In this document: positions 7,687-15,282 of the stretch, in pieces
How the letters are laid out: the number at the start of each line of letters is the position of its first letter
Position numbering within the stretch: position 1 is the first letter of the stretch
Assembly: GCA_000151295.1 (NCBI GenBank)
Contig: GG745332.1
Span: 847,457 to 911,456, forward strand
Source: Allomyces macrogynus ATCC 38327
Lineage: Eukaryota > Blastocladiomycota > Blastocladiomycetes > Blastocladiales > Blastocladiaceae
DNA length: 64,000 nt
Reading direction: 5' to 3'
Notes under the pieces: model-generated
Databases searched by the model: none
Seen by the model: only the letters and a program-made list of their open reading frames with translations
Told to the model about the DNA's origin: nothing
Made by a program: the position numbers and the translations under genes

Positions 7687-8982
7687 TCAATTCAAACTCC
7701 ACGCGAGCGGCGTGCCTTCGAGAAAATACACGTCGCCGAGCACGTTGCCAAGCTGCGACTCGTCCATCGTGAACAGCGGCGCCTCGGGGAGCGCCGCTTC
7801 GGCCTCGGCGTCCAATCCCGTTGTCAGGCACGTTGTTCTACCCGCGGGCGCGACGGGCTCGTCCGCCGCCACGCTCTCCAACACGTCCGGACTCGCGGTT
7901 GTAGCCGATGCCGATCCGTTTGCTTCCGCCTCCACCGTCGTCTCGTTCCTCGACGCGGGCGGCCACGGTTTGGCGCCGCACTTGGCCGCTGCATCAATCT
8001 GCCACACCGACGCGTGCAACTCCAGCTCCCCATGCGCGCCACCGGGACGCGCAACGGGCGCGAGTAGCCACAACACGTTGCGTCTCGCCATCATGCTTGG
8101 CATGTACGTAACGGTACTGTTATGTTGGCACCACCCGAGCGGGACCGGGAACTTCCTCTCGTCGAGCGCCGGGTACTCCATGGCATGAAACAACAGCCCC
8201 ACCGCCGGCGCCGTATCGGCCGCGCGCGACGCGACGGTGATCGCTGGGTTCGGCACGCTCGCGCGTCCGCAGGGACGGTGTACGAACAGGTGCGCGTGCC
8301 ACAGGTCGAACCGCGATAGCGTCAGGTTCGTGCGTGCGGCGGGTCCGCCGATGGCGCGGAATACGCTGGACAGGTGCGATGTGAGCGGTGCGAGGTCGTT
8401 GTGCAGTGGAGAGACGATGGGGGTGCGCGTCAGCGTGCACTTGTCGAACGCCGGGAACGTGAAGTCGCGCGCACGGTCGAGTAGCGCGGACATGGATGAC
8501 GACGGTTCGGCGGCAGTTGCACTAGCGTAGAGGGCGCGCAGTGCGTGCTGCGTGCGCGGGTCGGACGGGTTCGGCGCGGGGACCGGGATCGCGTACGGTG
8601 GGGTAGAGACCGACGTGATCGCATGGGCCAGTGCGTCGTCGGCAGCAGGGTGGAACGTGGTGGCCGGGGGCTCGTCGAGGATCCCTCGCGCGACGTGCTG
8701 GTGACGGCGTGCAGCAGCAGCGGCCGCGTCGGCACGGAGCAGCACGTCAATCAAAGCGCTGCCCGTGCGATTCGCGCATTGCGGTGCTCGAGCAGTGACG
8801 GATCTCGCGACGAGGTGCGACGCCGACGTGAATCCGCCCCATGGCCGGTTCGGTCCAATCAGGTCCGACTTGTCGTTGTTGATTGGCCACGCGCTGCTGC
8901 TGTTCGGAGCGGAGGCGAGAACCGACGCGAGCGCGACCGTAATCGTCAGGGCGAGCGTAATCAAAGCGACGCGGCGATTCAT
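7687..8982 (-). CDS. Unknown protein with N-terminal signal peptide or anchor
   Basis: Single-exon gene, 431 aa from the Met at 8982; I recognise no family. This start places a basic MNRR followed by a hydrophobic stretch (about residues 5-27) at the very N-terminus, a signal peptide or type II anchor; the frame stays open to an upstream ATG at 9156. The body is Ala/Pro-rich and has several Asn-x-Ser/Thr sites (for example NRTG, NLTL, NSTV, NETT), consistent with a secreted or lumenal glycoprotein. The central part with FDLWHAHLFVH, LLFHAMEYPALD and NVLWLLAP looks globular. An even number of Cys residues would allow disulphides. Convergent with the thioesterase, stops 140 bp apart. Confidence 0.72.
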   Translation of the reverse strand: MNRRVALITLALTITVALASVLASAPNSSSAWPINNDKSDLIGPNRPWGGFTSASHLVARSVTARAPQCANRTGSALIDVLLRADAAAAAARRHQHVARGILDEPPATTFHPAADDALAHAITSVSTPPYAIPVPAPNPSDPRTQHALRALYASATAAEPSSSMSALLDRARDFTFPAFDKCTLTRTPIVSPLHNDLAPLTSHLSSVFRAIGGPAARTNLTLSRFDLWHAHLFVHRPCGRASVPNPAITVASRAADTAPAVGLLFHAMEYPALDERKFPVPLGWCQHNSTVTYMPSMMARRNVLWLLAPVARPGGAHGELELHASVWQIDAAAKCGAKPWPPASRNETTVEAEANGSASATTASPDVLESVAADEPVAPAGRTTCLTTGLDAEAEAALPEAPLFTMDESQLGNVLGDVYFLEGTPLAWSLN

Positions 8983-9841
8983 TTTGCTGCAAGTTGCTAC
9001 AACCATGAGCTCGAAGCCCAACGCCAAGTTGCTGCAACCTGCAGCGTGGCGACGACGGTGGCAAAGGCTGGCGTGAACGTCGACGTACTTGTCAGCGCCG
9101 ATTGCGTCATGCACCGGTCGGGATGCGGACACGCCGCGGACAGCTCGAGCGATCATGACAGATTGGTCACGACCAAACTCGAAACGAAAAAGGGAACAAA
9201 AAAGAGAAAAGTGATCCTCAGCGCAGGATCATGGGTGGAGAGGTCTGGCGACGTGGTCGACTTGACGTAGCCGCGACCGAGAAGCGCACGCGACTATTCC
9301 CACGGCGTGGTGATGTGACGGGTGGTATGATCAAGCTGCAACCGCCGGCTAGCGGACGACAAATGGTGACAACTTGATCAAATTCGGATCGGAGAGAGGG
9401 ATCATGTCTTTTTTGCGGGCAACCGTTGTGTTCCGCCAGGGCCGTCTGCCCCCCAATAGTGGTTGGGAGCAACAAGCCCAATGCGGCGAGTGACAGTGCG
9501 GATCAGTCCCGTGACTGGTCGCCATAGCAATTAGCTCCATTTCGCTCGAGCCTGTCAGGCCTACCGACCATGCGTGACCGCGTCGCAAAGTGTCACAACA
9601 ATGTCTTTGCGTCCGCACCTCGCCACTGCCTGCGCCCATCGTCGACCGTTGCGGTCAATCGTAACCATGTCAACGGAAAGGACCAATACATGCTGCAGAG
9701 CCCACCAAGTCCTCACCAAGTCATGCAACCGTCGACCATGGCCGCCATAAGAACCGCCGCCGGCCCGCGTCTGATGCCGACTGTGGAGATAGCGACTCTT
9801 CCATCCGCCATCTTACGTCTTGCATCCGGCACCTCGCTTCA
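8983..9841. other. Divergent intergenic region, no supported gene
   Basis: About 860 bp separating the start of the signal-anchored unknown (minus) from the E2/F-box/TerD gene (plus). It presumably carries both promoters. I see no convincing ORF, tRNA or repeat. Confidence 0.55.
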
Positions 9842-12797
9842 TTGCAACGAAACCTCGTCACCATGGTTGCCCGCGTCCTGATCATTTCCTCGGCCAAGAA
9901 GCCCGCCACCAAGTCGGCGTCGGCGTCCAAGTCGTCCAAGGCGCAACGCGGTCCATCCACGACCCCCGCCGTTCGCCGGCTCATGTGGGATTTGAAGGAG
10001 CTGCAGGCCGACCCGCTCGAACACGTCGTGGCCTCCCCGCTCGAGGGCAACTTGTACGAGTGGCACGTGAACCTCGTCGGACCCGCGGATCTTGCGAGCG
10101 TCTGCCCGGCCATGGCCGGGTCCGTTTGGCACATGGTGATCAAGTTCACCGACTCTTACCCGTCCAAACCGCCGTCGGTCGTGCTATGTTCGTCGATCCC
10201 AGGCCATTTCAATGTGATGGGCGCACGACCGGCGGATGGGTTCTTCCCGGTGTGCATGGTTATGCTCGAGACGGGTACGTCCTTTTCGCGGAAATTGGCA
10301 CTCGAGATGGGCGGCGGTAATTGACGATAGCCTCGTTGTTCCACGTCCAGGCACTCTCCAGGAAACCGCGACACACCAGTACTCCGGGTGGAGCTCGGCC
10401 TACACGGTTCGGTCGATCCTGATGCAGCTGCAGGCGCTGCTGTGGCACCCGGACATGTACACGCACGCCAACGCCGCGACCCAACTCTCGGCTGCCGTAC
10501 AAAAGGCGCACGAGTTCCAGTGCACGGCGTGTGGCCATTCATCGACGACCCCGTTCCCGGCACTATCGCGACCCACATCCTCGGCGCGCAAGACCAGCGA
10601 CGACGACACGGCGGCGGCGACGCGCATCATGCTCGAGATGCCGCGGCACATCATCGACCAGCTCGGCCACCTGCGCCGGATCCTGCGCGGAAAGGACGCG
10701 CCGCTGCGATTGGCTCCGACGCGGAAGGAGGGGGACTCGTGGACGGCCGTGGCGAAGCCGCAGAAAAAAGTGGTGCTGGTCCCGCACCAGGTCGTCGCGC
10801 AATCCAAGAAACTTGCGGCGCAGGCCAAGAAGCAGACCACCAACGGCAATGACGGCGGCGAGCGCCAGTTCGCAAGGAGTGCGCAGGCCGCGATTGATCA
10901 CGGCAACGCCGGCCTCCTCGCAAAACTCCCGACCGAGCTCCTGCTGCAAGTCCTCGGCGACCCGTGCTTGCGCATGCGCGATGTGTTCCGTCTCTCGAGC
11001 ACGTGCCGGTACCTGCACTGGGCGTGTGCCGCGGCCGACGTCTGGCATCGGTTCGCGAGCACGCGGTCCGGACTGGCGGGCCTCGCACACGACTGGCGGT
11101 ACCTCTACATGGCCGAGCACAACCAGGCAATGCGCGACCTGCGGTGCTGGTACACGCGCGCGGCGTTCACCGAGGACGTGTTAGGGCTGCCGGTGGAAAT
11201 CACCGTGAACCCGCGCACCAAGAAAGTCGACTATGCGATGCCGACCATGGCGTTCCTGTCGCGCACGGCGTTCAAGGACCTAAAAGTGCGCGTGACACCC
11301 GGGGACAAGCGCACGTTCACGCATTGGATGCCGCTGTACTTGTCCGAGGACCATTTCGACCGCGTGTTCGGCGACCTCAAGCAGTTTATTGCCGCGCTCG
11401 CGGAACCGACGGTCGTGAACCCGACGTTTTCGGCGGGCATGATCAACGATGTGTTCCCGAAACTGCTCAACACGTGCGCGGTGCTACTGGCCGACCGCGG
11501 GATGCACGCGTCGGACGCAGCGATTGAGCTGTATACGCAGCTGCACCGCGTCTGGGTCGCGTGCCTGCACCGGTTCCCGAAACAGCAGGCGAACGTCGAG
11601 CAGCGGCTCGCGCGGTTCATGAGTTCCGAGGAACACCGCACCAAGACGACGGTCCCTGCGCTCGGTGAACTCGTGGCGTTGCTTGCCGTGAGCGAGGAGT
11701 ACGCGTGGGCGCAGCTGGCCGGGCCCGTGCTCGAGGAGACAATGCACCGCAACGTGCTGTGGATCGGCAAGGCGAATCCGGCGCTGATCAAGGGTCTGCA
11801 GAAGCAGCATCATGTTGCGCAAACGCCCAACGACGACCTGCTCAAGACGGCTTATGCGGCCACGACTGTGTCAAGGCGGCTGCTCGCGTTCCACGTGCTG
11901 TTCTTGAAGGAGCACCGCGGCCAGCTGACGGTCAACTCCAAGGGCGCGCCCGCGGCTCGATCGGTCGCGGAAATGGCGCTCACGGCCGACGTGCTCTACG
12001 GCAAATTGCCGACCCGCGTCACGGCGCGGATCCAATCGGGCATTCGCGCGATCCTCGACGAGATGCCGCATTGGGGCGCGTGGTACCGGCGCATGCACGT
12101 GACGATCCTCTCGCGGCTGGCGACGACGCGGTGGATTCACGGCGCCGTCTCAGCGTCGTTGCGCAAGGGGTACCATTCGCGCACCACGGATTTCGGCAAG
12201 ATCCAGGCGCGCGGCGTGTCCAAGATCTTGCTGCGCGGCGAAACGTATTCGGTGGCGCCGACCGCGCGCCGGATCGCGGTCGAGGAAACGTGGAGCCGCG
12301 CACACGGTGGGCTGTACCTGGACGCGTCGGTCATGGAAGTCGATGCCCACGGCGTCGCGCGCGATCACGTCACTTACGTGCACCGCACGTCGCGCGGCAG
12401 CGCAATTTCGCACTCGGGCGACTTGTTTGAGCATGCGCGCAACGAGGGGTTGCACCGGATGACGATTGATCTCGACAAGTTGCCGGCCGACGTGCAGCAC
12501 TTGGCGTTTTTCATGTCGGCATGGTCGTCAGCGTCGCTCAAGGATATCAAGGCGCCATATATTCGACTGACGGACGGCGCACAGGAGTTGTGCACGTATA
12601 CGTTTGCCGAGACGGTCGTCGGCGCGCACAAGTCGGTAATGATGGCGGTCTTGTCGCGGCAAATGGGGGTCGGTGGCGCGCCTGACAAGTGGGCGATGCG
12701 CGCGACGGGCGTGTTTGGGCATGGGGATGTGTCGAATGACGCGCCGATGCGCGCGACAGTGCGGCAGTATATTGTCGAGGCCCGGGCGGGCCAGTAA
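9842..12797 (+). CDS. E2-like (UBC) domain + F-box + TerD domain fusion protein
   Basis: Two exons, 9842-10274 and 10351-12797, 959 aa. Residues about 40-185 form a UBC fold: LKELQADPLE, LYEWHVNLVGP, KFTDSYPSKPPSVV, an HFN in place of HPN, a candidate catalytic Cys in FFPVCMVML, then GWSSAYTVRSILMQLQALL. A short C-x2-C motif (FQCTACGHS) follows. An F-box occupies about 333-375 (LLAKLPTELLLQVL...CRYLHWACAAADVW). A long mixed helical region of about 400 residues follows with no family I can name. The C-terminus (about 795-920) matches TerD: YLDASVMEVD, HSGD, IDLDKLPADV, IRLTDGAQEL. TerD proteins are calcium-binding stress proteins known mostly from bacteria. The order suggests a ubiquitin-linked scaffold; activity is an inference. 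An ATG at 9863 is an alternative start. Confidence 0.88.
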
Positions 12798-13572
12798 ATG
12801 AGCATGAGGGCAAAGACAATATAGAATATACCACGCCGGGACAGTGCGCGCGCGATTTGTGCGGGCGCGGCGGCGTTTGATAGTGAACTGATTTGGAACG
12901 CGATTGAGCGTGGACCTTGGTTGAAAATGCGCGAATCGGGCATGGATAAACAATATAAATCAGGCTGGCCGGCGATTGCAACGCCAGGAGCGCCAGGCGA
13001 GCGCGCGGGCGGCAAGCGCGGCGCAGACGTACGCAAGGTGCACTTGGAGCAAAAGATGTCAAAAAACGGCGCAAACCGCGTCGGCAACGCGGGAACGGGG
13101 GCCGAAAGCGGCGGTGATGCGATGGCTCTTTGCGCCACACGTGATCTGAATCAGACGCGCGCCGGTCGCTTGCTGCGTTTTGGTGCAAGTTTTGGCGTTT
13201 TTTGAGGGTCTTCTGAGGCGCGCCGGGCAGCGCCGGCAGCTGTGCGCCAAGGCGCGGCAGCCTGCCTGCGGCTCGGGTCTTTGCTCCATCGACCACCACC
13301 TCCGCGCACCCACCCCCGCGACCGCGACGCCCACACCCCTCACCACTGGACGCCTGACGCGCCGGCGTCTCGCCTGCACAAGTTCGCGGCCACCGCTCCG
13401 CACCGTCTCCACCTGTCGAGCGCGCGTACAATCGACCCTCGCTACCCAGCTGTTCGGGACCCGTGCCAAGGACCCAGATTCGCTGGCCCCGTCGGCCACT
13501 TGTTCGGCCCAACTCGCAAGCAAGCCTGCACCTGCATCGCTCACGTCGCCCGCGTCGTTCACGTCGTCCGCC
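12798..13572. other. Intergenic, probable 5' region of the bHLH gene
   Basis: About 775 bp. A TATA-like TATAAAT lies at 12954-12960, roughly 610 bp before the chosen bHLH start. The bHLH reading frame stays open to 13180, but the extra sequence is Ser/Thr/Arg-rich and looks like 5' UTR. No other gene is supported. Confidence 0.5.
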
Positions 13573-15158
13573 ATGAGCTTCCTGCAAAGCTTCACGCCGA
13601 CCGCGGCCGCGCCGGCGCCCGTATCGCAGCCCGCGCAGCAACTACCACATCAACAACAGCAGCCCGTCACGTACCTCTACGCGTACCAGCAGCCGGGCAC
13701 CTCCTACTACGTTGCCGTGCCGCCACCGTCGTCCGCGCCCGCATCGGCGGCAGGGAACGGAGGTGCGACCGCGGCCGCGAGCGCGACGCCCGCGATTGGC
13801 ACGCCAACGGCGACCGGATTCTACTTGCCCGTATCGGCCAACCTCCAGCAGCAGACGCAGCAACCGACGCCGCAGTCATATAACCAGCAACCGCAACCGC
13901 AGCAGCAGCAGCAGCAGCAGTACCAGACGTACCCGGCGCAACCGCTCGTGCAGCCCGCGGCGGTCCGCGTGCAGGAAGGATTCCATGTCCACGCAACCCC
14001 CGCGCCAGGCGCTAGTCCCGCGCCGCCACCACCACCGCAGCCGCAGACCGCCTCGATGACCGTTCCGGTCTCGACCGGTGGTGCGTCTTCCTCGACCGCC
14101 GGCGCGATTGCGATTCCACACATGTCGACGTCGGCGCTGAGCGCGTCATTGACGGGCCCGACATCGGCGCTCCAGTTCGAGTCTCTTCTCGCACCATCTT
14201 CTTCTTCGTCGTCGCTTTTGCATCTGACGTCGTCGGGCACCCCCGCGGCGGGCGCACCGCTGTCCGCGTCGCTGCCCGCGCACCACCACGTCCAGGCGCA
14301 GCGGTGGCCCGGCCTCGTCGCGGCGACTCCACCGACACCGTCGGCTCTGCATTTCGCCACGTCCCCTGCTTCTGCCGTATTTGCCGGTTCATCGTTGCCA
14401 AGTAGTGTCCCGACCGTCACGGTCGCGTCGGCCACGGCCGCCTCGTCGGACGTGCACGCGCTCTACGAGAAACGGCGGCGGCGGCGCGAGTCGCACAATG
14501 CCGTGGAACGGCGCCGCCCAGATATTATCAACGAAAAAATTGGCGAGTTGGGACTCATGTTGCCGGAACACATGGTCGGCGCCGACCCTACCCTGAAATT
14601 GTCCAAGGGACAGATATTAAACAAGGCGGTCGAGTACGTGCGCCAGTTGCAGGGTGTGCTCGGGCAAGTCCTCGATCGGCACCAGGAGCTGGAGCACGCG
14701 TTGCGGCATTTGGGTGTGGATCCACCGACACCGTCATTTGTCCCGGCGTTGCAGCGGATGGTTCCGGCGCTCGCGGGCACTGCTGGAGTGAATGGAGGGG
14801 ACGCGATGGCCGTGGATGGTGGTGGCAGTGGGGCGAACGGGGAAGGTGGGGAGGATGACGCGTCGCCGACGTTCGGTAACTTGCCGTCGCCGTTGGAGGA
14901 GGGGGACGAGGGGCAAGCTGACACGGCAAGTACCGCCGACGGGCTCACGCTCCAACAACAACAGCAGCAAGCACAGGCCCAGCAGCAAGCACAGCAGCAG
15001 GCGCAGCAGCAGCAAGCACAAGCTCAAGCCCAAGCGCAGGCCCAGCAGCAGCAACAGTACTCGGCGCTCTTCCAAGGCGCGGTATCCGCACCCACGACGG
15101 TACCGGGCACCACAGCGCCCGGTAGTGTCATGTACCTGTACAACCCGCAGTACTACAC

Positions 15159-15195
<37 letters not shown>

Positions 15196-15282
15196 GCGCA
15201 GCAGCATGCCGTACAGCTCGTGCAGCAGCCGGGCCAGCCGCACGGGGTCATGATGCTCCCGCAGCAGCCGGCGCGGTCGTAA
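13573..15282 (+). CDS. bHLH transcription factor with polyglutamine tracts
   Basis: 569 aa in one exon. The start at 13573 (MSFLQSFTPT) was chosen because the protein-like Gln/Pro-rich sequence begins there. The N-terminal half is Gln/Pro/Ala/Ser-rich, typical of activation regions. The bHLH lies at about residues 300-375: basic region RRRRRESHNAVERRR, helix 1 with INEKIGELGLMLP, a loop containing LKLSKGQILNKAVEYVRQL, then a leucine-spaced extension, most like the USF/MITF/SREBP E-box group. The His and Glu that read E-boxes are present, but the conserved Arg that follows is Pro. The C-terminus has two long CAG/CAA runs. It probably binds DNA as a dimer in the nucleus; targets cannot be told from sequence. 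Confidence 0.88.

Follow-up and report, generated by a model that had tools for sequence, protein, structure and literature searches.

Can a single eukaryotic polypeptide carry a ubiquitin-conjugating enzyme (E2), an F-box and a TerD domain, and what might such a chain do? The question is raised by a gene in a 64,000-nucleotide stretch of the Allomyces macrogynus ATCC 38327 genome (hereafter, the window), for which a sequence-only reading had proposed that a UBC fold, an F-box of the SKP1-CUL1-F-box (SCF) type and TerD are joined on one chain. With its start codon (ATG) at 9863 and the last base of its stop codon at 12797, the gene lies on the + strand of the window (all features of the gene given below lie on this strand), and its spliced product of 952 amino acids is identical to AMAG_04797, which NCBI names a hypothetical protein in this organism's 54-Mb assembly. 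We found that the three domains do occur together on one eukaryotic chain, with the place, order and exon structure that had been proposed, and that the region separating the F-box from TerD has a predicted fold resembling the ubiquitin ligase (E3) module of UBR4. We consider it rather probable that AMAG_04797 is a self-contained E2-E3 ubiquitin ligase. Sequence and predicted fold together point to the following composition: a RAD6/UBE2A-type E2 with its cysteine, a C-x2-C-x-H motif, an F-box, a UBR4-like module and TerD.

The gene has a single intron. Exon 1 (9863..10274) encodes residues 1-137 plus the first base of codon 138, and was chosen from nine listed frame-keeping GT..AG solutions as the one that retains the E2 motif. 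The 76-nucleotide intron (10275..10350; GTACGT...CCAG) sits just past the E2 active site, a position supported by the C57 and C75 copies of the gene (described below), whose exon-wise matches stop at near-identical query residues; exon 2 (10351..12797) encodes the remainder of the protein and the stop codon. UQ_con, F-box-like and TerD all exceed their Pfam cut-offs in AMAG_04797, which answers the hidden Markov model check that had been suggested for these domains. The model of AMAG_04797 rests on genomic sequence, and two or more genes might in principle have been read together; exon 2, however, is one open frame from the end of the E2 through TerD, purifying selection extends across its parts, and all three Pfam domains recur in 26 proteins (hand count), one of which is a transcript. 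A fused or wrong gene model is therefore strongly disfavoured, to the point of being barely credible.

The E2/UBC domain (residues 33-202; 9959..10544, with the intron inside) belongs, by its best sequence matches, with RAD6/UBE2A-like enzymes. When a UBC profile of seven non-green family members was compared with the PDB, the 14 best distinct sequences were all RAD6-family E2s, among which we take 1z3d, 1q34 and 2aak to belong; UBE2A scored 91 bits, and UBE2D1 came next after the RAD6 set, at 80.4 bits. The candidate catalytic cysteine of the sequence-only reading is upheld: C131 (10253..10255), located by alignment to the family rows, stands at the conserved E2 place, where Cys is present in 30/30 rows outside the green clade and in 0/13 inside it (rows with the region). 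Furthermore, the HPN-type His is kept in 43 of the 47 rows, and the Asn in 40 of the 46, that have a residue there. Behind the E2 lies a C-x2-C-G-H motif (C195, C198 and H200; 10521..10538), a possible zinc knuckle, with C195 found in 38/65, C198 in 42/65 and H200 in 43/65 rows of alignment A3, of which 17 to 20 are gapped at these places. We also noted P0007, a UBC protein that has the same C-x2-C-x-H behind its E2 and, by Pfam, none of the other domains.

The E3 part of our interpretation concerns the approximately 340 residues between the F-box and TerD (residues 398-741; 11130..12161), the predicted fold of which is UBR4-like, with a hemiRING-like part followed by a helical UZI-like part. 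Passages of PMC10873205 describe how the UBR4 module recruits UBE2A/UBE2B through Arg7, Arg8, Arg11, Arg95 and Ser97 of the E2; the E2 here being RAD6-like, two parts that in animals come together in trans appear to share one chain. The equivalent of Arg8 is Arg in 38/38 rows covering the E2. In the 27 non-green rows, Arg or Lys occupies the Arg7 place in 19 and the Arg11 place in 17, Ser occupies the Ser97 place in 25, and Gly is found at the Arg95 place in 22.

Several observations nevertheless weigh against a working E2-E3 unit of this kind. AMAG_04797 has Trp in place of UBE2A Arg11 and Gly at the Arg95 place, and its E2 active-site loop contains an insertion, directly after the catalytic Cys, in which AlphaFold2 assigns residues 139-147 a predicted local distance difference test (pLDDT) score of <50. 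The likeness of the middle domain to UBR4 is one of predicted fold only, at ~10% identity and a root-mean-square deviation of 4.1. A HMMER profile of the domain run against the PDB returned eight sequences (E 0.14 to 1.2), none of them a UBR protein, and hhalign against a single UBR4 sequence gave a probability of 0.3. Comparison of 11 members with Pfam at E up to 10 yielded three families, each in one member (best E 0.14), and PF13764, the UBR4 C-terminus, had no match in the Allomyces genome, a result that is uninformative because no control genome gave a match either. Moreover, the C2HC zinc ligands given for the UBR4 hemiRING in passages of PMC10873205 (C4838, C4841, H4887 and C4890) are not retained: when residues were paired by eye, only C403 (63/65) and H472 (62/65) proved near-constant, and AMAG_04797 has one Cys only within residues 385-480. 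The loss of these ligands suggests that the RING-like part is metal-free or different, and that it may bind E2 weakly. As the ligands are lost and sequence similarity to UBR4 was not found, we call the module UBR4-like rather than a member of the UBR4 family.

Could the F-box instead be the main link to ubiquitylation? The F-box-like domain (residues 328-372; 10920..11054) follows a low-confidence linker (residues 203-327; 10545..10919), in which residues 235-252 and 285-298 are predicted to be helical. It is identified by Pfam only, at 29.4 bits against a cut-off of 24.3, the 50 VIA matches listed for the full-length model including no F-box chain; in relatives the score reaches 45.7 (P0024), 47.1 (P0068) and 52.1 bits (P0073), and in P0039 it is 19.8 bits, under the cut-off. 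Were the chain to join SKP1-CUL1-RBX1 with its own E2, RBX1 would activate that E2 and the UBR4-like part would act as a substrate-binding scaffold, an arrangement for which the above-threshold F-box here, its strength in some relatives, and the E2 loop insertion all speak, since CDC34/UBE2G-type E2s have an insertion at the same place past the catalytic Cys. With a UBR4-like fold predicted between the F-box and TerD, however, the chain need not rely on SCF for its E3 part, and we judge this arrangement unlikely. The domains of the original F-box/SCF proposal are thus present, but that proposal was incomplete in having missed the predicted E3 module.

The green clade bears on a different question, namely, whether the E2 acts as an enzyme at all. 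Its 13 rows (ten assigned by name, and P0009, P0011 and P0015 by tree position, of which P0009 starts right at the Cys place) lack the catalytic Cys and yet retain the E2 region around it. Their active-site motif is [WY]-x-[LVF]-x-[LMIY]-W-[DNH]-C-x-P, in which the Cys lies four places further on in the alignment. That this shifted Cys has taken over is conceivable, but the simpler reading of these sequences is that the green E2 is probably a regulatory pseudo-E2. E2 catalysis is therefore not universal in the family, which must be added to the difficulties listed above, and in green plants and algae the E3 module would have to use a separate E2. One might extend this argument to Allomyces, and propose that its E2 sits as a regulator on the E3 face until TerD binds a ligand, with ubiquitin supplied by free RAD6; UBR4 itself works with free UBE2A, according to passages of PMC10873205. 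The presence of Cys in every non-green row and the retention of the HPN-type His and Asn argue against this proposal, which we regard as distinctly improbable.

TerD is best known from bacterial tellurite-resistance genes, and the GDDE of bacterial TerD is a calcium ligand. In AMAG_04797 the TerD domain (residues 762-943; 12222..12767) retains the fold, together with the LDAS and HSGD-type motifs, and two of the acidic places are kept in most rows (D795 in 63/65, D828 in 61/65). The GDDE seen in the aligned bacterial structures 3ibz and 2kxt is replaced by G-x-H-x, with H839 present in 62/65 rows. Calcium sensing by TerD, considered as a candidate function, is weakened by this loss and is doubtful; a coupling of calcium sensing to ubiquitylation, as the sequence-only reading had it, is not supported as stated, the acidic places being only partly kept. 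Passages of PMC7159879 suggest specialised nucleotide derivatives as what TerD may recognise. Two single environmental proteins are also instructive: in P0072, a vWA domain (residues ~375-557) follows the UBR4-like module in place of the start of TerD, and in P0039 fingers of the PBZ (poly-ADP-ribose-binding) type stand behind TerD (residues ~915-980). The C-terminus therefore looks like an exchangeable reader.

We hypothesize that E1, the ubiquitin-activating enzyme, would load ubiquitin onto C131 of an E2 held on a tether of ~125 residues, mostly of low confidence and probably flexible. The E2 could then engage the hemiRING-like face, either of its own chain or of a partner, in the way that UBE2A engages UBR4; the closed state of the ubiquitin-charged E2 may be favoured by the UZI-like helices. 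The C-terminal TerD would read a stress signal or a substrate, its ligand most likely being a metal, nucleotide-like or modified. The F-box may dock SKP1, and through it the enzyme might also enter a CUL1 complex, form dimers or come under regulation.

How widely is this architecture distributed? A first protein search found seven proteins: two A. macrogynus copies, one each from A. javanicus, A. arbusculus, Blastocladiella and the liverwort Riccia, and P0007; all but P0007 carry the three Pfam domains. A profile search with the F-box-to-TerD region returned 69 proteins, 21 of them with all three Pfam domains (counted from the table), including proteins of Powellomyces, Obelidium, Siphonaria, Chytriomyces, Entophlyctis and the amoebozoan Planoprotostelium, as well as Cymbomonas, Parachlorella, Symbiochloris, Diphasiastrum and Adiantum. 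One three-domain member, P0016, is a transcript that its source labels a complete open reading frame. The survey that had been proposed for Blastocladiomycota and chytrids thus located the architecture in both, and beyond them in Amoebozoa, green algae, liverworts, a lycophyte and ferns. Because distant members escape searches that depend on shared words, we claim no absences. With so wide a family across lineages, the architecture is not peculiar to the Allomyces genome, and it is old. We built a midpoint-rooted FastTree from 65 rows, of which many come from metagenomes. It recovers the green lineage as a split (support 0.991) that includes the land plants, and places Powellomyces with Blastocladiomycota (0.927); support is weak at many deep nodes within fungi and Amoebozoa (0.06 to 0.86). 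Mostly vertical descent of the family is likely, although not proven. Only one row, P0064, could be assigned to the ochrophytes from its database entry (taxid 35687, now Octactis speculum), and it has no precomputed Pfam domain.

Besides the gene under study (C71), the Allomyces genome itself has one copy each on C69 and C75 and two on C57. The C69 copy (C69:497019-499726; loci L010, L011, L013 and L017) is 79-85% identical piecewise and contains several in-frame stops; it is probably a decaying duplicate. On C57, a second paralogue occurs twice, in opposite orientations and ~45 kb apart (932294-935147, - strand; 980375-983228, + strand), with equal matching scores; the 5.4-kb loci are not identical, differing by 1139 mismatches in a gapless comparison.

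Relatives were also sought in viruses and prokaryotes. Foldseek detected the fold of the middle domain in proteins of Terrestrivirus, Tetraselmis virus 1 and Hyperionvirus (E 4.6e-20 to 6.5e-15, TMq 0.75-0.80, 20-24% identity), the records of which call them E2 ubiquitin-conjugating enzymes; BFVD fold matches also include Klosneuvirus and Catovirus, and the fold recurs in vWA proteins of Marseillevirus LCMAC202 and Pandoravirus inopinatum. Scans of viral contigs by sequence (A2, A6, P0016) found no relative. Since structure comparison does find giant-virus proteins, either these scans were too narrow or such viruses lay outside the scanned set. Scans of genome contigs with F-box-to-TerD and TerD alignments, bearing on a prokaryotic origin, found nothing; the patterns are lineage-specific, so that absence is not shown. 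A protein search with TerD only gave six proteins, all with the family architecture or already members. When P0019 was compared with plasmids by tblastn, 2527 records matched, and 16 of the 20 rows listed were named TerD family protein or TerZ; in the one match region inspected, TerD is a separate gene. NCBIfam NF041916, the bacterial RING_SCO0854 family (MXAN_6230/SCO0854), may offer a bacterial parallel, in that it appears to join a RING and a TerD-like part. P0016 and P0006 match it in the TerD part only (E 1.6e-4 and 3.4e-4), and in the Allomyces genome it matches six other places, at model positions 92-189, none in the AMAG_04797 gene.

Two open frames flank the gene. Downstream, 13150..15282 on the + strand encodes a helix-loop-helix DNA-binding domain (E 3.2e-13) and long Gln-rich runs; upstream, a 513-amino-acid frame on the opposite strand (7690..9228, - strand) matches no Pfam family at E up to 0.01.

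Chains that pair an E2 domain with E3 function are a known kind, exemplified by the hybrids UBE2O and BIRC6; in both, the UBC domain is placed towards the C-terminus and accompanied by domains other than those of AMAG_04797, and to our knowledge neither has an F-box, a UBR4-like module or TerD. No description of the UBC/F-box/TerD architecture was found among the titles listed from the openly licensed PubMed Central (PMC) literature or in the passages of PMC3710099, PMC3188802 and PMC7159879 consulted, nor any publication there that pairs TerD with F-box. The UBR4 hemiRING-UZI module and UBE2A/UBE2B are the closest comparison drawn for the E3 part, but here the E2 is in the same chain, the zinc ligands are lost and no sequence similarity was found; AMAG_04797 also lacks a UBR box by Pfam, and has F-box and TerD instead. 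It resembles SCF F-box proteins in the mid-chain F-box of a substrate-receptor-like protein, and differs in bringing an E2 of its own together with a second E3-like module. Bacterial TerD, TerE, TerZ and SCP2 share the TerD fold and the LDAS and HSGD-type motifs, whereas AMAG_04797 has G-x-H-x for GDDE, and its TerD is part of a ubiquitin enzyme rather than of a ter operon. CapA and CapB of Dictyostelium show a TerD-type half in a eukaryotic protein, and are set apart by their description, the passages of PMC3188802 consulted mentioning no E2, F-box or UBR4-like part. The E2-named proteins of the three giant viruses have the middle-domain fold in common, and were compared in that domain alone.

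Tentatively, and with slightly less than even confidence, we propose that these proteins represent an ancient ligase class, predating the split between Amorphea (fungi, Amoebozoa) and Diaphoretickes (green lineage, ochrophytes) and with a core form in giant viruses. In such a class, a RAD6-type E2 would be fused to a zinc-less UBR4-type E3 module and an exchangeable C-terminal reader (TerD or vWA), forming a stand-alone relative of the UBR4/UBR1 system that converts a Ter-type stress signal into ubiquitin, and the green pseudo-E2 would have arisen once. AMAG_04797 would be a small, one-chain form of an E2-E3 pairing for which animals require a 574-kDa ligase plus a separate E2, and would offer a handle on the origin of the UBR4/UBR1 E3 module and on whether a metal-free hemiRING can work. 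Across green plants and algae, the E2 Cys was apparently lost once, which provides a natural experiment in the passage from enzyme to pseudo-enzyme. Finally, TerD, the bacterial role of which has long been unclear, here occupies the reader position in a ubiquitin enzyme, where its ligand may be found through a ubiquitylation readout.
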